Shown: in pieces, positions 15,607-25,663 of the stretch
Layout of the letters: each line of letters opens with the position of its first letter
How positions within the stretch are numbered: position 1 is the stretch's first letter
Source: Negativicutes bacterium
GTDB taxonomy: Bacteria; Bacillota; Negativicutes; Sporomusales; JAOACF01
Direction: 5' to 3'
Length of the DNA: 39,324 nt
Assembly: GCA_026417995.1 (NCBI GenBank)
Contig: JAOACF010000007.1
Coordinates: 334 to 39,657 of the forward strand
Program-made: the position numbers and the translations under genes
Notes under the pieces: generated by a model
Told to the model about the DNA's origin: nothing
The model's database searches: none
What the model saw: only the letters and a program-made list of their open reading frames with translations

Positions 15607-16539
15607 CTACGCTTTATTTAAAGCGCTTAATAACGCGTCAAGGTCTATACCGTGAATACCCGCAGCTTTTTCAAGGTTTTCGCCGTTTGCCGACGGGCAG
15701 CCGAGACAACCCATGCCGTGAGCCCGAAAAATGGCAATAGTGTTCGGATTTTGACGGATAATATCGCCGATGATGCTGTCCTTAGTAATCGGCCCGTTCT
15801 GTATAGGGGCTGCATTGACCGCAGATGCGGGCGCAGCCGCCGTCGCTTTCGTCTCCGGCTGCTCTGCCGGTTGTCTGCCGGCATACAGTTCCATAACATC
15901 CCGGCGGAAGTTCTCCCAGCCGATCCGTTCGATAAATTCTCCCATGCGCTCAATATCGGCGTACTGTTTATAATAAGCCAGCACAATTTCCACCAGCGCT
16001 AAAACCCGGTCCTCATCCAAGCCTTCCGCTAAAACTGTAGCCAGGCGGGGTTTGCGGCCGCAACTGCCGCCCACTAATACTGTCCATCCTTCTTCCGTAG
16101 CCATGACGCCAATATCTTTTATATGCACTTCGGCGCAGGAATTGGGGCAACCCGCGACGCCGATTTTCAGCCGCGAAGGCATTTCCTGCTTATGATAGCG
16201 TTTATCGAGCTCCATCCCCAGCTTGACTGAGTCCGCCAGCCCGCGCTTGCAAAAAGCGCTGCCGGGGCACATCTTGACGCTGCGGACGCAGTTGGCGTAA
16301 GACAGCGCCGGATTGACGCCCAGTTCCTCCCAAACTTTATCGACATCCTCGCCCTTGAGCCCGATGATCATGATGCGCTGCGCCGAGGTAATTTTCAGGG
16401 TCGCGCCGTATTTTTCCGCCACATCAGCGTATTTCCGGATTAGGCCGGGCTTGATAAAACCGCCGGGAATACCGGGCGTTATTGCGTAAGTTCGCCGCCC
16501 TTCCCGTATTTTTTGCAAGTTTGCCGCTTTTGGCAACAT
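15607..16539 (-). CDS. Siroheme/4Fe-4S sulfite-nitrite reductase family protein fused to DUF1858 domain
   Basis: 310 residues from the ATG at 16539 (314 from 16551). Residues 1-215 are a compact nitrite/sulfite reductase unit with the classical siroheme-FeS ligands: C91-x5-C97 (CPGSAFC) and C131-x3-C135 (CPNSC). An Ala/Pro linker follows (about 222-248), then a DUF1858 domain (about 252-310) with FRAHGMGCLGCP, whose CxxC is at 278/281; this domain is known beside or within hybrid-cluster-type proteins. It probably reduces or handles sulfite, nitrite or nitric oxide; which one is not decidable. It is a single gene, with two CRP/FNR-type palindromes upstream and its own terminator. The 16539 start suits the predicted transcript start at about 16556. 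Confidence 0.85.
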   Translation of the reverse strand: MLPKAANLQKIREGRRTYAITPGIPGGFIKPGLIRKYADVAEKYGATLKITSAQRIMIIGLKGEDVDKVWEELGVNPALSYANCVRSVKMCPGSAFCKRGLADSVKLGMELDKRYHKQEMPSRLKIGVAGCPNSCAEVHIKDIGVMATEEGWTVLVGGSCGRKPRLATVLAEGLDEDRVLALVEIVLAYYKQYADIERMGEFIERIGWENFRRDVMELYAGRQPAEQPETKATAAAPASAVNAAPIQNGPITKDSIIGDIIRQNPNTIAIFRAHGMGCLGCPSANGENLEKAAGIHGIDLDALLSALNKA

Positions 16540-16562
16540 TTCTCTCACCATCCTTTGCTTTT

Positions 16563-16643: not shown

Positions 16644-17750
16644 CTAAAATTCCATTGTCGCCGGCGATTCCCAGCGGCCGGCATGCGACAGAATGATTTC
16701 TGCCAGCATCTTGGCGCCGCCTTTGCTGACATTTACAACCGGCAGGTTTACGGCGCTTTTCACGGTAAGCTGCAGCCTCACCGGATCAACCATACCCGGA
16801 ACATAGGTATTGTCTTCCACCCGGTATTCGGGATAAAACGGATTGACGGTGATCGCCATAAGCGGCACCCGCTTTAAAACCGCTACCAGTACACCCGCTT
16901 CATCCAGTTTGGTCAGCATGGCAAAATAGCTTTGATCTTCCGCTGCGACCAGCAGTTTCACAGGGTCTTGCACGGCTAAAATGACCCGGCGCCCTTCCAG
17001 CCGCTCGGCAAGGGCTGCCAGCGCCTTGCCCGTGATGATGCCCGGCACATAGAGGCAACCTCCCTCGGGAATGTCCGCAGCCAATGCGCTGTCAACATCC
17101 TGCGCGGTTAAGAGCGAAAGCTTCATCGACCGGCCGCGCACCCGCAGTCCGGCATCCAGGACGGTGACGCCGGGATAGTTGCGCCGTGCGATTTCGGCCG
17201 CTGCCGGCGGCTGCGGCAGACGGGCAATAGCGGCGAAACTTTGGGCCTGAGCGGCCAATAGCGCAATATTGCGGCTCTTGGCGGCGCCGGTTGCCAGGAT
17301 CATGCCGTCCATTTCACCAAAAGGGGCAATTCGATTCAGCGCTCCGTCAAAGATGGCTACGCCGTGGCTCAGTCGTTTCAGCATATCGGCAATCCGCCTG
17401 ACTTCATGTGTTTTGTTGGGGCCTGCGGTCACAACCAGCCCGGGTCTTAACACTTCGGCGATCTGCACTTTGCCCAGCGGCGTGCCGACATCAGTCGTTT
17501 CCAGCACCCGGAAAGCCGCCGTGCCCGTCTTCAGGCACATTTCCGCGGTTGCGACTATATCTCCGGCCTTTACCTCCAGGCGGGGCTTGGGCAAGCCGGT
17601 AATGGCGTCGATGCTCTCACCGTCATAGCCGATACTGGTCAGCAGCAGAGGTATGCCTCTAGCGCGCAGTTCGGCCATGATCGCGATCGTGGCGGTCGTT
17701 TTGCCTGTATTTTTGGCTGTGCCGGCAATCCCTACCTTAATAAACTGCAA
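16644..17750 (-). CDS. P-loop ATPase-like protein, KamB-like aminomutase reactivase (proposed)
   Basis: 368 residues from a TTG start with GGAGG eight bases upstream (the upstream regulator ends in that site). A P-loop GTAKNTGKTT lies at about 10-19, followed by LLTSIGYDGE and the TGLPKPR and GDIVATAEMCL segments. From memory, AKNTGKTT, TSIGxDGE and LPKPR are shared with KamB, a subunit of the lysine 5,6-aminomutase reactivating factor; I could not check this. Reactivases swap damaged cobalamin for adenosylcobalamin using ATP. Its place at the end of the cobalamin-mutase cluster supports that role. The longer frame to 17795 overlaps the regulator and has no ribosome site. No KamC-like partner is seen. 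Confidence 0.65.
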   Translation of the reverse strand: MQFIKVGIAGTAKNTGKTTATIAIMAELRARGIPLLLTSIGYDGESIDAITGLPKPRLEVKAGDIVATAEMCLKTGTAAFRVLETTDVGTPLGKVQIAEVLRPGLVVTAGPNKTHEVRRIADMLKRLSHGVAIFDGALNRIAPFGEMDGMILATGAAKSRNIALLAAQAQSFAAIARLPQPPAAAEIARRNYPGVTVLDAGLRVRGRSMKLSLLTAQDVDSALAADIPEGGCLYVPGIITGKALAALAERLEGRRVILAVQDPVKLLVAAEDQSYFAMLTKLDEAGVLVAVLKRVPLMAITVNPFYPEYRVEDNTYVPGMVDPVRLQLTVKSAVNLPVVNVSKGGAKMLAEIILSHAGRWESPATMEF

Positions 17751-17754
17751 GGCG

Positions 17755-18480
17755 CTATCCTCCTTTGCCCTCCCAATACCGTTCGACGTCGGCAATCAGG
17801 TTGTTCACATGGGTGATCATCGCCTGCCTGGCCTTCTCCGGGGCACGGCCGGCAATCGCCTCATAGATGTTCTTATGGTCAATATATACCATACTGTGCA
17901 CGCGTTTGCGGATAAACTCCAGCACCGGCGAGAGTTGGGTATCGACGCGGATGAGCTTGATCGCCGAAGCCAGCACGCGGTTGCCGGCCATTTCGGCAAT
18001 CGTCGCGTGAAAACAAACGTCTGCCTCGGCCGTGGTTTCCCCCTTTTCCACGCCGCGAAACTGGCCTTCAAGGCATGCCGCCAATGCGTCAATTTGCTGT
18101 CTGGTGCCATTTACCGCCGCCAGCGCGGCAAGCTCGCTCTCGATCGCCCGGCGGGCCACAAGCACTTCGAGCAGTTGTTCTTTGGTATGTCCTTGCAGCG
18201 CCTCGGCCAGTTCAGCGCCCCAGCGCAGACCCTTGCTTTTTGTCGCCAACTCCTGCAGCTTTTCCATTCCTGTCGGCGATATCAGCCGTCCCTGATACCC
18301 TGCTTTCAGCGCATAGCCGCATTCATCAAAGTCGCGCAAAATCCGCCCAACGGTAGCTTCACTGACCGAATATCCCTTTTTGCGGAGCATGCTGCTGATG
18401 GCGCCGCAGCCGACAGGCTGCGCGGCATCCTTAAGAATAGTCAAAATTTCCGCTGCAAGGCGCTCTTTTTCCTGAAGCAC
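17755..18480 (-). CDS. Transcriptional regulator: winged helix (HTH_12 / NrpR-like) plus FCD ligand domain
   Basis: 241 residues. Residues 5-68 look like the winged helix found at the N-terminus of NrpR and RNase R type proteins (LTILKDAAQPVGCGAISSML, then SEATVGRILRDFDECGY), not the GntR helix-turn-helix usually attached to FCD domains. Residues about 95-235 are an FCD domain, with likely metal or ligand residues D154, H158, H202 and H224. FCD regulators sense small organic acids. GTG start at 18480 with AGGGGGAG just upstream. It lies inside the second unit of the cobalamin cluster and is the best candidate to bind the CTCATC-N3-GATGAG operators. Confidence 0.75.
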   Translation of the reverse strand: MLQEKERLAAEILTILKDAAQPVGCGAISSMLRKKGYSVSEATVGRILRDFDECGYALKAGYQGRLISPTGMEKLQELATKSKGLRWGAELAEALQGHTKEQLLEVLVARRAIESELAALAAVNGTRQQIDALAACLEGQFRGVEKGETTAEADVCFHATIAEMAGNRVLASAIKLIRVDTQLSPVLEFIRKRVHSMVYIDHKNIYEAIAGRAPEKARQAMITHVNNLIADVERYWEGKGG

Positions 18481-18494
18481 GGCAACTCCCCCTG

Positions 18495-18941
18495 TCAATT
18501 ACCGCCCGCCGCCATAACGAAGCGGATGGCATCACCGGGCTGCGCCTCTATTTCCCGGCCGGTTTTAAGGTTTTCCGTCAAAATCACAATATTTAAGTGG
18601 TTGGGCATATGCGTTTCATCAAAACCCAACAGCTTGCCGATGCAGGCATCGCGCAAATATACAGCGTCGCCGGCGACAACAACTCCTTCGCGGGCAACGC
18701 TGAAAAAGCCAAGATAAGCGATGCGGTCAACCCGGCCGCCTGCTTGAATGCCCTGCTGGTCAGTCAGGATAAGTTCATGCACCTGATAGCGGTTTAGGCA
18801 GCGGGAAGGCTGCGGAATTAAGACGAGGCCCCGGTTTTCCATGCGGCCGTCCAGCACGGCCACGAGCCGGCCGGAAACTTCGGCTTTCCGGTAATAAGGA
18901 TTCGCGGTAAACAAATTTTGCTTATATGGATCTGCCGACAT
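18495..18941 (-). CDS. Unknown protein of the cobalamin-mutase cluster
   Basis: 148 residues, mostly predicted beta strands, no signal peptide and no membrane helix. I do not recognise the family. Phrases such as GRLVAVLDGRMENRGLVLIP and LTENLKTGREIEAQPGDAIRF suggest a small barrel or binding fold. Start ATG at 18941 with GAGGTGAG just upstream; a frame extending to 19031 would overlap a stem-loop. It follows the transporter gene and ends 15 bases before the regulator start, so it belongs to the same transcript. A role in the same pathway is inferred from position only. Confidence 0.6.
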   Translation of the reverse strand: MSADPYKQNLFTANPYYRKAEVSGRLVAVLDGRMENRGLVLIPQPSRCLNRYQVHELILTDQQGIQAGGRVDRIAYLGFFSVAREGVVVAGDAVYLRDACIGKLLGFDETHMPNHLNIVILTENLKTGREIEAQPGDAIRFVMAAGGN

Positions 18942-18984
18942 AATACTCACCTCGCCAAATCTTGCTTGACAACCTAAAGCCAAA

Positions 18985-19015
18985 GCAGGGGAAATAGCTG
19001 GCGCCACTCCCCTGC
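18985..19015 (-). other. Intercistronic stem-loop after the transporter gene
   Basis: GCAGGGGA and TCCCCTGC pair perfectly (8 bp) around a 15-base loop containing GGCGCC. On the minus strand it is followed by GCTTTGGCTTT, a broken T-run. It could lower expression of the downstream genes or stabilise the transporter mRNA. Confidence 0.5.
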
Positions 19016-19031
19016 ATATGAATTTTACCAA

Positions 19032-20414
19032 CTACATCAGGATAACGGCGACAATGGTAGTGGCGATAAAGCCGCAGACAACCGGAATCAAGTTGCGGCG
19101 GGCGAGTTCGAGCGGGTTCACGCCGCAAATAGCGGCAACCGGGATTAAGCCCCAGGGAATAATTGTACCGCCGCCCGTCCATACGCCGGCAATCTGGCCT
19201 AACGCCGCCAGCGTGGCTGTATCAATGGTAATGGCCTTGCCAAAAGTGGCGGCCACGCTGCCCACCAGCGGCAGCGGGGAGAAGCCGGAGCCGTCCAGGC
19301 CGACGATGATGCCGGTGCCTAGGCTGACAAGCGCTACGAAAGCTTTATTCAGCGGAACGGCCTGGGATAAGGCCACGCCAAAATCTTCGAGAAAGCCGGT
19401 AGCCGTTTTCACTTCTAAAATTTGTTTTGCCAGTTCGCCTTTGCCCATAAAGAAAAATCCGCCGATGATGATAACCGGAGCAAAAATCTTGATGCCAAAC
19501 ATAAAGCCGTCACGCACATAATCCGTGATTTTTTCCAGACCTTCCCAGCCAAATTTCAGCATAGTGCCTACCGCCAGAATAATCAGCGCGGTCGCGCCAA
19601 GCAGCGCAGTCGCATCACCGCCCCGCAGCTTGAGGGCGAGCATAGCGTACACATCAAGCGCAAATGCCAGCGGCGTGACAATGGCGAGGAAGTACGAGAT
19701 CCAGTTGATATCGCGTTTTACCGTAGCGGCGGCAAGAGCCTCCCGGTCTGCCTCGAGCATATGCGGCTTGGCCTTGATGTCACGTTTTAGCATTACGAAA
19801 GCAACAACCGTTGTGACCAAGCCCATGGTAATAGCAAGCGGCACGCTGGCGCTGATAACCTGAGACGGATCGGCAAAACCGGCTGCTTTGGCCGTAATCG
19901 TCGGTGCTCCTTGAATAACATAGTCAGTTGACAGCGCTATGCCATGGCCAAACAGGTTCATAGCCACAGCCGCACCGATAGCTGGCAATCCCGCGCGGAC
20001 GGCGACCGGAAACATGATCGCCCCAATAAGCGCCGTCGCCGGCGAAGGCCAGAAAAACCAGGAGGCAATCATCATACTAAGCCCCAGCACCCAGAAGGCG
20101 ATAGCGGGACTTACCATGAGTTTGGCTGCAGGGCTCATGACCAGGTAATCGGCGCCGGTTTCCGAGAGTAGCTTGGATAAAGCAACAATCAGCGAAATAA
20201 TAACGATAATACCCCAAAATTCGTTGCCGGCAACAATCAACGCATTGTATACAGTGCTTACCCCGCCGACAAAACTCTTTTTAAACAGCCAGCCGACGGT
20301 CAAAAGCCCCAGAACACAGGGAATCAGCGGATCCTTGCGGAGCCCCATTACCACGATTACCACGCCGACCCAGAACAAAAACAGCCAATGTGACGCGGTC
20401 AGTTCAATTGCCAT
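19032..20414 (-). CDS. Membrane transporter, ion-transporter superfamily (GntP/DcuC/CitMHS-like)
   Basis: 460 residues, about 11-12 hydrophobic helices. Two helix-break motifs are visible: ASWFFWPSPATALIGAIMFPVAVRAG in the first half (about 115-140) and VGLDGSGFSPLPLVGSVA in the second half (about 370-390), each like the re-entrant loops of the ion-transporter superfamily. Members import carboxylates or gluconate-like acids with protons or sodium, or exchange them. AGGAGGG precedes the ATG. It is the first gene of the second unit and carries one CTCATC-N3-GATGAG operator upstream, so it probably imports the pathway's substrate. Exact family and substrate uncertain. Confidence 0.75.
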   Translation of the reverse strand: MAIELTASHWLFLFWVGVVIVVMGLRKDPLIPCVLGLLTVGWLFKKSFVGGVSTVYNALIVAGNEFWGIIVIISLIVALSKLLSETGADYLVMSPAAKLMVSPAIAFWVLGLSMMIASWFFWPSPATALIGAIMFPVAVRAGLPAIGAAVAMNLFGHGIALSTDYVIQGAPTITAKAAGFADPSQVISASVPLAITMGLVTTVVAFVMLKRDIKAKPHMLEADREALAAATVKRDINWISYFLAIVTPLAFALDVYAMLALKLRGGDATALLGATALIILAVGTMLKFGWEGLEKITDYVRDGFMFGIKIFAPVIIIGGFFFMGKGELAKQILEVKTATGFLEDFGVALSQAVPLNKAFVALVSLGTGIIVGLDGSGFSPLPLVGSVAATFGKAITIDTATLAALGQIAGVWTGGGTIIPWGLIPVAAICGVNPLELARRNLIPVVCGFIATTIVAVILM

Positions 20415-20709: not shown

Positions 20710-22017
20710 TTATTGCGCGGCGCATAGTGCCGCCGTCGTGACCGGAATGGCGAATACGCCGGTCAGGCCCGTTGCCCGCACCCGCTCCCGGATGGCGGCG
20801 ACATCGGTCGTATATAAGCCTTTGGCTTTCATCCGCTCAAAATATTTAGCGCCGGAGAAAGTATACTTTAAGGTCAGGCCCGCTTCGGTCTGCATCTCGG
20901 CGCGCACGTACGCAATAGCATCGCCGATTGCCAGCGTTGCGGGAAGAACCAGCAGGGAAGCGCCGACTGCCTGCCGCACGGCATTGTGTCCGGCAAGTGT
21001 ACCGGTAACAATAGCCTCTGTATGGCCGACCAAAAGACCGGCTTTCTCGCCGCCGCAGAACAGATTGTCCAGCCCCTCCACTTTGAGCGCATTATCGCGG
21101 GGCGAAAGCGCCAGATAACGGATGGAGTTGCCTACGCCGCCGGCATATGGATCTTCATACCGGGCATTGGCAAAACCGGGAATGCTGCGCAATTTATCGA
21201 GCGGGTAGAAGGGCGACATGAGTTTGGCGTGTCCGGTATCGAGCAAAATGACATTTTCGGCAAAGTCCTGCAGGGCATACTGCTGACAGGCTTTAATCGC
21301 CAGCGATTCCTGTTTGCGCAATTCCGCCGGAATCGGCACAACTGCAACACCGCGCTCATTCAATTCCCGCACCAATTCTTCGCTGAGCGATTCCTTGTGC
21401 AGCTTGCACGAGCCGCTCATCGCACCAAAACTGCCGTCAGCTTTCCTGCCGATAATTTCGGTTACGCCGGCCTGCGCCGCAATGCTCACCCGCGGTCCGA
21501 ATGTCGGACAGCGCAGAATGCACATGGCGCAGCCGTTGCCGTATTTCAGGCAATTGCCTTGCGGTCCGGCCGAACCGGTCGCTTCCACAAAAGCATCGGC
21601 GGCAAACACCTGCCCTTTGTCGCTAACCACCGCCCGGATGCGAGAACCGTCCATAACCACGCTCTGGATGCGGCTCTTCAGATGCACCTTTACGCCGGCG
21701 CGGACAAGTTTGGCGCGTACGACAGGTTCGATCCTGGCCACATCATACAGCGTCGCGTGTTTGTGCCCGGGAAATTCGATGTTCTTATGCCGGGCGGTTT
21801 CCTCCACGGCGTCAAATAAATCGCCGCCGCCCAGCGCATAGGCTTCTTCCGTCGCCGTAAACCGGCCGTTATTGCGCATAATGCCGCCGACAAGCCCTGT
21901 TCCCAGCAGCATATCGGTGCGCTCCAGCAAATGGACTTCAGCCGCTCCGGCCTTTTTCGCGGCAATCGCTGCCGCGCATCCGGCCCAGCCGCCGCCAACT
22001 ACTACAATGTCAGACAC
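20710..22017 (-). CDS. FAD-dependent oxidoreductase with cysteine cluster
   Basis: 435 residues from the GTG at 22017, with AAGGAGGG seven bases upstream. The Rossmann FAD motif VVGGGWAG lies at about 6-13, and a C-terminal GLFCGGEKAG-like segment (here LDNLFCGGEKAGLLVGHTEA) closes the FAD fold as in GidA/fumarate-reductase-type enzymes. A CX6CX2CX3C cluster at C156, C163, C166 and C170 (NGCAMCILRC) may bind an iron-sulfur centre. Substrate unknown; an amino acid or oxo-acid oxidation is possible from context. Last gene of the first unit, 40 bases after the PLP enzyme gene. Confidence 0.8.
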   Translation of the reverse strand: MSDIVVVGGGWAGCAAAIAAKKAGAAEVHLLERTDMLLGTGLVGGIMRNNGRFTATEEAYALGGGDLFDAVEETARHKNIEFPGHKHATLYDVARIEPVVRAKLVRAGVKVHLKSRIQSVVMDGSRIRAVVSDKGQVFAADAFVEATGSAGPQGNCLKYGNGCAMCILRCPTFGPRVSIAAQAGVTEIIGRKADGSFGAMSGSCKLHKESLSEELVRELNERGVAVVPIPAELRKQESLAIKACQQYALQDFAENVILLDTGHAKLMSPFYPLDKLRSIPGFANARYEDPYAGGVGNSIRYLALSPRDNALKVEGLDNLFCGGEKAGLLVGHTEAIVTGTLAGHNAVRQAVGASLLVLPATLAIGDAIAYVRAEMQTEAGLTLKYTFSGAKYFERMKAKGLYTTDVAAIRERVRATGLTGVFAIPVTTAALCAAQ

Positions 22018-22057
22018 AGAAAAACCCTCCTTACTGTCTTTGCCCGGGCAATGTCGA

Positions 22058-23524
22058 TTAAGCAATACCCGCATACTTGCAGGTGATTTCGATCAGGCGC
22101 ACCAACGCTCTTATCGCATAACGCATCGGCTCTGCCAAAACCTGGCCCTTACTGTCGCAGGTGCCCAAACCGGGCGAAATATAGATATTGCCGTCATAGG
22201 CGACTGTAGGTATGACGCCCATCTGCGCCATGCCGGTCTGGAAGATGTTCGACCCTGCATACATGTCTTCGATCGAGAAAATCGGAATGCCTAGCTCGCC
22301 CTGCTGCCATGTATTTTCGTAATTCACCTCTACTGCCGTTGAATTATACGACTTCGAGATGAGAATCCCTTCTTTCAGCCGGGCAGGCAGGTTAATTTTG
22401 GCAAATTCCTCTCGGACGATTTGTTCCAGGTCGTCTACCGGCTTGGTTAAAACCTCCGGCTTATCTCTTAGCACTTTAAGCGCCTGAATTTGCGTCAGCA
22501 ATGCTTCTTTGCCGGGATCAAATGTCACATAAGCCGCTTTGCCGTAAGATGCGGTAGTGCCGTAGCGGTCACCGTGCATGCCCATGGCCCGGCGAATGGG
22601 TACCATGACTTCTTCTTTGCCGATGATCAGGCCGCTGGTTGCCGCGCCGGTCGCTTTGTCCATGCTGTAGATAATTATGTCCGCGCCGGTTTTATGCGGA
22701 TTGCAGCCAACAAAAGGCAGCCCCCAGGCATTGTCAATCACATAGGGCACATTGTAGTCGCGCGCGATTTCGCCTATGTATTTTTGCAAGAGCGGCGTAC
22801 CGTCCTCGTCCTTAACGCCGTAGCCGTAACCGGGCGTTTCATAACCGAGCGAGGTGAATCCGGAGAGCATGCTGGCGTGGATGGCCGCATGCCTGGCAAT
22901 AATCTCTTTCGATTGCTCAGGATCAACCGCGGTCAAAAGCGGCACGGGATGGTATTTCAGGCCGTGCACGTCGTACTTGGCGCCGGCCAGCGGCACAATT
23001 ACCGTGTCCAGGTTATTCTGGCGCTTGCCGTAAAAGCCGAGTTCGCCGGCGGTCGAGCCCCTGTCGGCAAAAATATCTTTAAAGCGGGGCGGCACGGGAC
23101 GTCCATAACTTGCCTGGTGGTGCAGGTGTTTTTCGTAAGGAGCGATGTAGCGGGCGCGGTAGTTGTCGCCCCGGCCGAGAAGCGGCGGTGAAAACAGCGT
23201 GTCAAACGTGACCCAGAGGCCTGCTTCGCAGGTAGAAGTCGGCGCGGCGTCGTATTCGTCGCCATAAACACTTTTGACAATTTCGCGGATTTCATCGACC
23301 AGTTTGGCCAGCGGCACAACCTCTTTCGCGCCTTCTTCGCTTGCGGCCAGAATGTCCTCGCGGAGCGGTGCCGGACAGCCCGAAATGGCCCCTGTCAGGC
23401 CAAATTTGCCCCGCAGTTCTTGGGGTATCCCAATCTCATCCGCCACTGCCTTCGCCTCGGCATAGATATTGGGAATATTCTGCTGCAGCTGACGATACAT
23501 TTGGAATTTGAACTTTGGTTTCAT
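22058..23524 (-). CDS. Fold-type I PLP enzyme of unknown specificity (SelA/DgaE-like lysine motif)
   Basis: 488 residues. PLP fold is shown by YVIDNAWG with Asp264 (ring nitrogen) and by YSMDKATGAATSGLIIGKEE with Lys290 (Schiff base). The DK-x-GG/A-x-SG-iivGK pattern and the RYGTTASYGKAAY region recall SelA and D-glucosaminate-6-phosphate lyase (DgaE) rather than ordinary aminotransferases. An N-terminal region of about 130 residues (HLHHQASYGRPVPP and before) is not one I recognise. It may do a beta-elimination, lyase or transfer reaction on an amino acid. AGGAGGG precedes the ATG. It sits between the cobalamin mutase-like gene and the FAD enzyme. Confidence 0.75.
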   Translation of the reverse strand: MKPKFKFQMYRQLQQNIPNIYAEAKAVADEIGIPQELRGKFGLTGAISGCPAPLREDILAASEEGAKEVVPLAKLVDEIREIVKSVYGDEYDAAPTSTCEAGLWVTFDTLFSPPLLGRGDNYRARYIAPYEKHLHHQASYGRPVPPRFKDIFADRGSTAGELGFYGKRQNNLDTVIVPLAGAKYDVHGLKYHPVPLLTAVDPEQSKEIIARHAAIHASMLSGFTSLGYETPGYGYGVKDEDGTPLLQKYIGEIARDYNVPYVIDNAWGLPFVGCNPHKTGADIIIYSMDKATGAATSGLIIGKEEVMVPIRRAMGMHGDRYGTTASYGKAAYVTFDPGKEALLTQIQALKVLRDKPEVLTKPVDDLEQIVREEFAKINLPARLKEGILISKSYNSTAVEVNYENTWQQGELGIPIFSIEDMYAGSNIFQTGMAQMGVIPTVAYDGNIYISPGLGTCDSKGQVLAEPMRYAIRALVRLIEITCKYAGIA

Positions 23525-23600: not shown

Positions 23601-25415
23601 TCAGCAGCCGATAACGGTTCCCCGGCCGATTCTGCCCGGATATGCCCCCTCCTGCGTACTTCCCAGCAGCCCGTCATAAACTGCTTGGATAAAATCACCC
23701 CGCTCGGCTACCGCAGTCAGCACCTGTTCAATGCCCTCAACCAGTTGCTGCGCCCAAACACCGGCCTGGGCGGTAGGCTCAATGCCGGCCGTGCCGAAGA
23801 AGCGAAAGCCTTCCTGCACGGCCTGCAGCGTGTCAATCCTTGCCGCTGCGGTAATGGGACCGCCTGAATACGCCTCATCGGCCGACGCGATAGAGATGGC
23901 ATCCACCTGAAGGGATGCGGCGAGACTGGCGTGCAGCGCAGTGGTTATAGCCGACTGAACACGGTCCTCGGTATGCGTGAGAAAACCGATGGGAGCGCCG
24001 GGCCAGAGAGGAGCGTTCAGGATTTGACGCAGCGCCTGAACTTTGGCGACATTAAAATCAATGTAGTTGTCGGCCATCCAGCCATTAATCATCACTTCCG
24101 GCGAATAGGCAAACAGCGGCTGCAGAATGGGTTTTGCGCCCAGCTCCAGCGCCAGATCGGCTACGATGAGCATGCCGGCGAAAGCTTTATGCGCGGGCAC
24201 GCCGCACAGTTCCTCATTGGTCACAATATCAAACGGCAGATTGTACGCGGCAGCATATCCGACCGCCGCGCAGCCATCCACGACCATGCGCTCCGGGTCG
24301 GTGCCTGCGCCCAGCATGCCATAACAAAAATTGATCTTGGTCAGGTCTGCCCCTAATTTCCCGGCCAGCACCACCGTCTCCGGGGTATTGAGCCCCCGGT
24401 GGGCGCGCACCTGCCACAGCGTGGCGGCATGAATGCCGGCGCGAATACGGTCTAAATTCGCCGGAGTCAAAACCGTCCCGTCTTCCTGATGCGTCAGAAA
24501 CCCGTCAAGAAACCCTTCGGTCCGGGCGCCCCAGGAGGGGTCAAAATGAACAACTCCGTCAACCCCCCAAGCCTCGCTGGCCAGAATATGCCCGATATCC
24601 ATAAACGGGCAGCCGGTACCGTACTGGTTAAAAACAAGCGGCCGCTTGCCGGTATGGCGAACGCTGCGTACCGGCGTCTGAGGCCTTACTGTCGCCAAAT
24701 ACGCTTCTAGGTCGCGCACCTCGCCCGGAGTAACCCGTCTGGTTTTCGGATGCAGTTCTCCCTGCCCGTAAAAATTCCGCGGGATTTCCCCGCATAAGGC
24801 CGCGTACTGCCGCGTGAAGTATTCATCAACGCTACCCTCGCGCCACTTTGCGGCATCCCAGCCGGCATGGCGCAACTCTGCCCGCATGATACCCGGTGAG
24901 GTGCGGCCCGTGACCCATTCCCGGATCATGCCGGTTACCCGTTTGACCTGCCGCTCAATGCCGGCGTGACGGTACCGGTAATCATATCCCTGGCAGATAT
25001 CGAATTTTTGCTTCAGGCTGGCCTCACGGTTGGGAGCATATTCTCTCTCCTCCACAAAGCAAATTACCTCAGCCACGCTTGTTCCCGGACCGAATCCGGC
25101 GTCAAAGCCAAGCTCGGCTGCCAGCTCCGGCCTTATAGCCATGCCGCCGATACCGATGCGGGCAGTTTGCCTGAGGCCGGCGGCATCCGCCATATCGATA
25201 AACCGCGCCAGCAGTTCGGCGACGCCATACCCCAGCGTGCGGCTGACAAGAATGGTGTCAACCTTGTCTTCCACCGCCCGGCTGATAATCTCTTCAAGCA
25301 ATAAGTCAGGCGGCAGCAAAATAGTCGTATGGCCGGCAGCTTCAAGACCGCGCGCCATCATTTTGAGGCCGATATCATGCACTGGATCGAGCGGCGCTAA
25401 CAGTACCTTCTTCAT
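23601..25415 (-). CDS. Cobalamin-binding domain fused to lysine-5,6-aminomutase-like TIM barrel
   Basis: 604 residues. Residues 1-125 are a B12-binding Rossmann fold: DPVHDIG (10-16, axial His13), ILVSRTLGYG, and the ELGFDAGFGPG loop, closest from memory to KamE of lysine 5,6-aminomutase. Residues about 240-604 resemble the KamD barrel: SWGARTEGF, the APIGFLTHTEDR segment and the closing VYDGLLGS region. In lysine 5,6-aminomutase the parts are separate, and Lys144, eleven residues after the axial His, holds PLP; the matching residue here is Leu24. So this looks like an adenosylcobalamin mutase without that PLP anchor. ATG overlaps the upstream stop as ATGA. Confidence 0.78.
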   Translation of the reverse strand: MKKVLLAPLDPVHDIGLKMMARGLEAAGHTTILLPPDLLLEEIISRAVEDKVDTILVSRTLGYGVAELLARFIDMADAAGLRQTARIGIGGMAIRPELAAELGFDAGFGPGTSVAEVICFVEEREYAPNREASLKQKFDICQGYDYRYRHAGIERQVKRVTGMIREWVTGRTSPGIMRAELRHAGWDAAKWREGSVDEYFTRQYAALCGEIPRNFYGQGELHPKTRRVTPGEVRDLEAYLATVRPQTPVRSVRHTGKRPLVFNQYGTGCPFMDIGHILASEAWGVDGVVHFDPSWGARTEGFLDGFLTHQEDGTVLTPANLDRIRAGIHAATLWQVRAHRGLNTPETVVLAGKLGADLTKINFCYGMLGAGTDPERMVVDGCAAVGYAAAYNLPFDIVTNEELCGVPAHKAFAGMLIVADLALELGAKPILQPLFAYSPEVMINGWMADNYIDFNVAKVQALRQILNAPLWPGAPIGFLTHTEDRVQSAITTALHASLAASLQVDAISIASADEAYSGGPITAAARIDTLQAVQEGFRFFGTAGIEPTAQAGVWAQQLVEGIEQVLTAVAERGDFIQAVYDGLLGSTQEGAYPGRIGRGTVIGC

Positions 25416-25663
25416 TTCCCTTCCCCCTGCGCAACGCCGCTTTGCAGCCAGCCGTAAGCGTCTGACGGCCGGTGAATGTACGCCCGGCCCCGTACTCTGG
25501 TTCCCGGGCCTTCATGCCGTGCATATACGATGTCGACATCGCGAAACCCCCATGATTTAAGCAAGCCGGTCATCAAATTGCGCCCTTCCGCCTCGCAGGA
25601 ACATACAAAAAAGGTTTCCACATCCAAAGCATCCATGATTTGCCTGGCAGCTTCCTGCATACC
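25412..25663 (-). CDS. Small unknown protein at the head of the cobalamin cluster
   Basis: 83 residues from the ATG at 25663, with GAGGTG five bases upstream. Its only notable features are FFVCSCEAEG near residue 20 (two cysteines) and a basic middle (RHEGPGTRVRGR). I do not recognise the family. Its stop overlaps the start of the mutase gene as ATGA, so the two are coupled and the product may be a small subunit or chaperone of the mutase. A longer frame to 25726 would translate through the operator and is rejected. Confidence 0.65.
   Translation of the reverse strand, partial: GMQEAARQIMDALDVETFFVCSCEAEGRNLMTGLLKSWGFRDVDIVYARHEGPGTRVRGRAYIHRPSDAYGWLQSGVAQGEGK

Follow-up and report, generated by a model that had tools for sequence, protein, structure and literature searches.

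The window (the whole stretch of 39,324 nucleotides that was analysed) carries, in transcription order, genes for a small subunit, a large protein that we call the mutase, a PLP enzyme, an FAD oxidoreductase, a membrane protein, a DUF6917 protein, an FCD regulator and KamB (Table 1). The open reading frame of the mutase, which had been proposed in the original prediction, was confirmed by homologues with 62-73% identity across their full length and by full-length copies in 39 of the 399 sampled genomes of the phylum, although its strand had to be corrected to minus. The dataset comprised 57 mutase loci, including some duplicated records, from which 55 distinct mutase sequences were aligned, and more than 150 residues were invariant in an alignment of 18 members of the family. 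The small-subunit gene was immediately upstream of the mutase gene in about 54 of the 57 loci and was recovered by clustering in 47; the overlap of its stop codon with the mutase start codon (ATGA), as present in the window, was the commonest arrangement. Among the same loci, the PLP enzyme was found in 52, KamB in 49, DUF6917 in 48, the FAD protein in 46, the regulator in 40, RidA in 32 and the membrane protein in 24, and RidA was missing from the operon copy in the window. The true start of the DUF6917 gene is probably downstream of the listed one, and the membrane-protein family had no match in Pfam. In another locus (L050:11543-13165), the membrane-protein and small-subunit genes of the operon have a transposase-like gene between them.

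Table 1. Genes of the operon and segments of the mutase chain, with their positions in the window
Feature	Position	Strand	Remarks
82-aa protein, homologue of the KamE/OraE dimerisation domain	25412..25660	minus	hhalign to KamE residues 26-63, E 1.1e-5
Fused B12-domain and KamD/OraE-like barrel protein (mutase)	23601..25415	minus	604 aa
KamE-like cobalamin-binding domain, residues 1-126 of the mutase	25038..25415	minus	Pfam PF02310, E 3e-12; hhalign to KamE
Codon of axial His13 in the B12 domain of the mutase	25377-25379	minus	
OraS-like segment, residues 149-183 of the mutase	24867..24971	minus	hhalign E 1.2e-6
KamD-like barrel, residues 255-586 of the mutase	23658..24653	minus	hhalign and shuffles; Foldseek
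HFDPSWGAR, residues 290-298 of the mutase	24522..24548	minus	site of the missing KamD PLP-phosphate loop
Arg337-Ala338-His339-Arg340 of the mutase	24396..24407	minus	opposite KamD Tyr236-Ser238
Lys360...Tyr365 of the mutase	24321..24338	minus	Lys360 invariant; strand end in the model
Fold-type-I PLP enzyme, family of its own, 488 aa	22058..23524	minus	invariant Asp289-Lys290
FAD oxidoreductase	20710..22074	minus	four invariant cysteines (C175, C182, C185, C189)
Membrane protein, probably a transporter	19032..20414	minus	
DUF6917 protein	18495..19031	minus	Pfam PF21891, E 9e-48
Regulator, winged helix (HTH_12) and FCD ligand domain	17755..18498	minus	assigned from a clustered homologue
KamB-type AdoCbl-enzyme reactivase	16644..17795	minus	NCBIfam NF052386, 213.7 bits (cut-off 210)

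The Pfam and NCBIfam models matched nothing in the mutase outside the B12 domain, and the barrel is without a family model. A search of 18 family members with PF09043 (KamD/OraE) gave no match; in a further search, one family member had a weak score against this model (E = 0.0025). The closest curated NCBIfam models, those of the lysine 5,6-aminomutase beta subunit and OraE, scored 48.9 bits against a cut-off of 280 and 30 bits against a cut-off of 800, respectively. Sequence searches against solved structures were confident for the B12 domain only. Within this domain, the DPVHDIG motif with His13 and the ELGFDAGFGPG loop are present as originally described, and Asp10, Pro11, Val12, His13, Asp14 and Leu24 show no variation among the 55 distinct homologues.

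Profiles were compared by using hhalign, with KamD, KamE, OraE and OraS taken from genomes and with 100 column-shuffled templates as the control. The B12 domain of the mutase was aligned with KamE (E = 2.5e-23, 35% identity), and the barrel scored 43.2 with the KamD profile (shuffled maximum 28.1; n = 100) and 36.3 with the OraE profile (shuffled maximum 33.3; n = 100), the alignment of the barrel with KamD being a remote one (about 25% identity, hhalign probability about 50%). Residues 149-183 matched OraS (score 40.9, shuffled maximum 18.4; n = 100), with KTSPGVERA in the mutase family consensus and HTSPSIERS in OraS. The 82-residue protein matched the dimerisation domain of KamE (37.2; shuffled maximum 19.5) as well as that of OraE (26.8; shuffled maximum 21.9), and its match to Pfam OAM_dimer was weak (E = 0.032). 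The three barrel segments that had been likened to KamD were aligned with counterparts in KamD (SWGARTEGF with PYGPTTEGF, APIGFLTHTED with APLKYMPPTK and VYDGLLGS with IERGMFAD).

The AlphaFold2 model of the mutase, based on the 18-sequence alignment (mean pLDDT 76.5, pTM 0.77), places a beta/alpha barrel after the B12 domain, with pLDDT below 50 in active-site loops (residues 267-272, 293-299, 305-315, 438-448, 475-486 and 512-527). In the Foldseek search with this model, the best solved match was KamD (1xrs_A; E = 1.4e-14, 513 columns); the KamD structures (1xrs_A, 8t0v_A and 9q1a_C) were followed by OraE, methylmalonyl-CoA mutases were far below, and a GlmE-type barrel was absent among the 50 matches listed. 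The resemblance of the barrel to KamD is not a chance one, as shown by this match and by a profile score above those of all 100 shuffles. In the tree of the B12 domains, whose root is uncertain because the sole outgroup is remote, the mutase family formed a single group apart from KamE and OraE.

The profile matches of the barrel, the B12 domain, the OraS-like segment and the dimerisation domain indicate that every domain of KAM/OAM (lysine 5,6-/ornithine 4,5-aminomutase) is present but rearranged, and they demonstrate, at the level of the sequence comparison, the common descent of the mutase and these enzymes. As read from the genes, the dimerisation domain is a small subunit of its own, and the B12 domain, the OraS-like part and the barrel are in one chain. 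D-lysine 5,6-aminomutase (KamD/KamE; 1xrs, 8t0v, 9q1a) has in common with the present system the barrel fold, the KamE-type B12 domain, the dimerisation domain, the KamB-type reactivase and Tyr263. However, the B12 domain of the mutase is fused N-terminal to the barrel, the dimerisation domain is split off as the 82-residue protein, the Asp of the DxHxxG motif is one residue further out (DPVHDIG), and KamA, Kdd, Kce and Kal were not seen in the mutase operon. D-ornithine 4,5-aminomutase (OraS/OraE; 3kow-3kp1) resembles the mutase in having the barrel and the B12 domain in one chain and in the TSPSIER sequence of OraS (TSPGVER in the mutase family), whereas its domain order is reversed (barrel, dimerisation domain and B12 domain in OraE), its OraS part is fused into the mutase chain, its Lys629 is lacking in the mutase, and Ord and OrtAB are lacking in the operon. 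The description of the barrel and B12 parts as separate is accordingly correct for lysine 5,6-aminomutase but not for OraE, in which they are already fused in the opposite order.

The PLP contacts of lysine 5,6-aminomutase are Lys144 (KamE), Ser238, Tyr263, Asn299, Arg184, Arg268, Ser189 and the main chain of Gly187-Ser189; Tyr263 stacks on PLP, Ser238 is at the pyridine nitrogen, Tyr236 is near PLP, and the adenosyl group has Glu341 as its proposed partner (PMC3958899), the counterpart of Glu341 in OAM being Glu338 (PMC4413051). None of the 55 distinct mutase homologues has a lysine at the Lys144/Lys629 place; a conserved lysine that might bind PLP (Lys360) lies elsewhere. Leu24, which had been assigned to this place, does occupy it by residue counting; in the alignment, however, the loop of KamE bearing Lys144 is deleted after residue 22 of the mutase (8-residue gap in hhalign), and Lys144 has no counterpart. 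In the profile alignment of the barrel, Gly187-Gln188-Ser189 of KamD falls in a 9-residue gap after Ser294 of the mutase, Asn299 is opposite another gap, and Arg184, Tyr236, Ser238 and Arg268 correspond to Asp292, Ala338, Arg340 and Ala370, respectively, with moderate confidence at Arg184 and Tyr236 and high confidence at Arg268. The sole PLP contact retained is Tyr263, which corresponds with high confidence to Tyr365. The replacements at the KamD PLP contacts are fixed or nearly fixed across the 55 homologues (R337, H339 and R340 in 55, A338 in 54), and His290, Asp292, Arg298, Lys360, Tyr365 and R376 are also invariant in the family. Judging from this conservation, His290, Asp292, Arg298, Arg337, His339, Arg340, Lys360 and Tyr365 may line a new pocket. 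Glu341 of KamD is opposite Ala/Cys436 of the mutase family (moderate confidence), and Glu440 may be a substitute for the glutamate that assists the breaking of the Co-C bond in KAM (Glu341) and OAM (Glu338).

Neither the Schiff-base lysine nor the PLP-phosphate site nor the Ser238 at the pyridine nitrogen was found in the mutase, and the curated cut-offs of PF09043 and of the NCBIfam KamE and OraE models were not reached, so that the name aminomutase would be unwarranted without an assay. The separate grouping in the B12-domain tree, the recognisable KAM/OAM domains and the missing or replaced PLP-site residues support the earlier suggestion that the mutase represents a new adenosylcobalamin-mutase branch, either PLP-free or holding PLP differently, and the mutase is probably a third, uncharacterised and PLP-free branch of the AdoCbl aminomutase lineage. 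If PLP were held differently, the mutase would still be a PLP-dependent radical aminomutase, with another invariant lysine forming the Schiff base, the phosphate on new residues, the ring on Tyr365 and Arg340 at the pyridine nitrogen. Such an arrangement would be in line with the retained equivalent of Tyr263 and with Lys360, which is conserved in 55 of 55 homologues and, lying at the end of a strand in the model, would be the best candidate should some lysine bind PLP; an arginine at the pyridine nitrogen occurs in alanine racemase, a true PLP enzyme. We nevertheless regard it as unlikely, considering that the lysine and phosphate loops are deleted, that both phosphate arginines are gone and that no new phosphate-binding motif is evident in the mutase.

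The cofactor is suggested by the genes accompanying the mutase. KamB is the downstream neighbour of the mutase in 38 of the 57 loci and lies six genes downstream on the same strand in the window. The genome containing the window encodes only two copies of KamB, each in a mutase cluster; the second copy (201.9 bits, slightly under the cut-off of 210) directly adjoins the mutase in a second small subunit-mutase-KamB set (contig G000:C176, L079), and the two mutase copies are 69% identical. PF09043 (KamD/OraE) was unmatched in this genome (89% complete), the identical search succeeding in other genomes, and with the two KamB copies beside the mutase copies no other client of KamB is visible. Among 38 further mutase genomes, PF09043 was above the cut-off in only 18, which speaks for an occurrence of the mutase independent of KAM/OAM. 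Cobalamin adenosyltransferases are encoded in the genome of the window. Scans for a cobalamin riboswitch close to the operon were negative in the window and in seven homologous loci. From the KamB pairing, the absent KamD/OraE match and the adenosyltransferases, which constitute the best evidence, we infer that the mutase works by AdoCbl radical chemistry and is served by a reactivase of its own. The HDIG motif is common to the corrinoid proteins of methyltransferases, and the mutase might in principle be a corrinoid methyltransferase having the B12 domain and the barrel in a single chain. This is very unlikely, given the KamB-type reactivase gene in the operon and the best matches, which were KamE for the B12 domain and KamD/OraE for the barrel; a best match to a methyltransferase, named beforehand as contrary evidence, did not arise.

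The PLP enzyme was present in 39 of 39 mutase genomes and in 2 of the 360 others, and DUF6917 in 39 of 39 and in 1 of 360, respectively, both being present also where they are unlinked to the mutase. In the sole DUF6917 genome without the mutase, the PLP-enzyme gene is truncated where a contig ends. Since the mutase genomes span many families, though the genomes are not independent, shared ancestry alone is unlikely to explain the co-occurrence. The FAD family is broader, with paralogues in 114 of the 399 genomes. The genome of the window has, on a separate contig (G000:C177, L118), a second DUF6917-RidA-PLP-FAD set. This partnership bears on the view that the mutase is a degenerate, non-catalytic relative such as a B12-dependent sensor, as the loss of several catalytic residues might suggest; with a perfect enzyme partnership in 39 genomes, a dedicated reactivase and more than 150 invariant residues (18 sequences), we find this view scarcely credible.

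The PLP partner has the fold of the SelA/DgaE/SepCysS-type fold-type-I enzymes, with the catalytic lysine in a DK motif, but it forms a family of its own, without a close characterised relative, with 12-16% identity among the structural matches listed and with long, conserved extensions on both sides of the SelA-like core; a CPxP motif near residue 50 is invariant in the family. The fold did not identify the type of the partner, the SelA, SepCysS, AGT and SHMT types scoring alike. The fold type I of the partner and its invariant Asp289-Lys290 suggest that the PLP chemistry of the pathway is done by this other protein. In the DUF6917 family an HE pair is invariant, and there is a motif resembling THxPNHxN; the interpretation of DUF6917 as a remote OrtA (thiolase subunit, OrtAB-like) was rejected, the profile score of 15.1 being within the shuffled range (maximum 20.5). 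The cysteines of the FAD protein follow the invariant pattern C-x6-C-x2-C-x3-C and, from this spacing, may hold an iron-sulphur cluster. A cysteine-rich protein of about 288 residues without a Pfam match is encoded in 15 loci (L048:7823-8689 and 14 others), often divergently and beside the FAD gene.

Glutamate mutase and ethanolamine ammonia-lyase use AdoCbl for radical chemistry in a TIM barrel without PLP; GlmS of glutamate mutase is a separate subunit, and the B12 of ethanolamine ammonia-lyase is bound base-on, outside a Rossmann B12 domain. The mutase would share with them the PLP-free TIM-barrel chemistry proposed here, but the sequence families differ. In glutamate mutase, arginines bind the substrate directly and PLP is not needed. 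With R298, R337, R340 and R376 invariant, the mutase could similarly be a carbon-skeleton mutase of the glutamate-mutase type that has a KamD-type barrel and converts a dicarboxylate without an amino shift. This too we consider improbable: RidA, the PLP enzyme and the FAD oxidoreductase as partners suggest amine chemistry, and methylmalonyl-CoA and other carbon-skeleton mutases were ranked far below KamD and OraE by Foldseek.

The explanation that we favour, with a confidence moderately above even, is that the mutase is a PLP-independent, two-subunit AdoCbl radical enzyme (mutase or lyase) sharing an ancestor with KAM/OAM and serving an uncharacterised catabolic pathway. Points against it are the remoteness of the barrel alignment, the low pLDDT of the model in active-site loops, the retained equivalent of Tyr263, the occurrence of an arginine at the pyridine nitrogen in true PLP enzymes, the Ala/Cys436 opposite Glu341 and the negative riboswitch scans. 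In the scheme that we infer, AdoCbl rather than methylcobalamin would be used, and PLP would be absent from the enzyme. The enzyme would consist of the 82-residue dimerisation subunit and the large chain with the B12 domain, the OraS-like helices and the TIM barrel, and cobalamin would be held base-off with His13 as the lower ligand. The B12 domain would close over the barrel, as in KAM/OAM, bringing the 5'-deoxyadenosyl radical beside the substrate. The invariant basic residues replacing the PLP pocket (His290, Arg298, Arg337, His339, Arg340 and perhaps Lys360) would directly bind a substrate that is probably small and anionic, either an amine or an amino acid. The substrate radical would then rearrange by a 1,2-shift or undergo elimination, with no PLP aldimine involved, in principle as in ethanolamine ammonia-lyase. 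KamB would swap out inactivated cobalamin, and the substrate or product would be processed by the obligate partners, namely the separate fold-type-I PLP enzyme, DUF6917, the FAD oxidoreductase and, mostly, RidA. RidA, present in most genomes, suggests that the catabolic pathway, regulated by the FCD protein, would pass through an imine or enamine. The wider proposition, namely a third class of the KAM/OAM lineage that discarded its built-in PLP while its pathway gained an obligate, separate fold-type-I PLP enzyme of a new family, and that forms with this enzyme, DUF6917, RidA and an FAD oxidoreductase an unknown amine-catabolic pathway with an uncatalogued radical reaction, is in our estimation evenly balanced between true and false.

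To our knowledge, the classes of AdoCbl radical enzymes are few, and B12 and PLP are combined in KAM and OAM only. PLP is considered to be what enables the amino shift of these enzymes, and a close structural relative without the PLP site allows one to ask what the role of PLP is, by what route the site was lost and what replaced it. No paper on such an enzyme was found in the literature searched, preprints and most subscription journals being outside its scope. Through the 39-of-39 co-occurrence, the genes of the pathway, the PLP partner and DUF6917 become targets that can be identified, and there is now a strong lead to the function of DUF6917 (40 of 399 genomes, 39 of them with the mutase) and a lead to that of a PLP enzyme without an assigned family. 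If the third-class proposition is true, the pathway occurs in about one in ten of the genomes sampled from the phylum.

We also considered the neighbouring genes as a guide to the substrate, but rejected this approach; outside the core cassette, these genes change from lineage to lineage and seem to reflect synteny, not function. In the window, a gene for a small nitrite/sulphite-reductase-like protein with a DUF1858 domain (15607-16551) follows KamB on the same strand. In another locus (L009:13293-17810), PrkA, YeaH and SpoVR-like sporulation genes are immediately downstream of the mutase-KamB pair.
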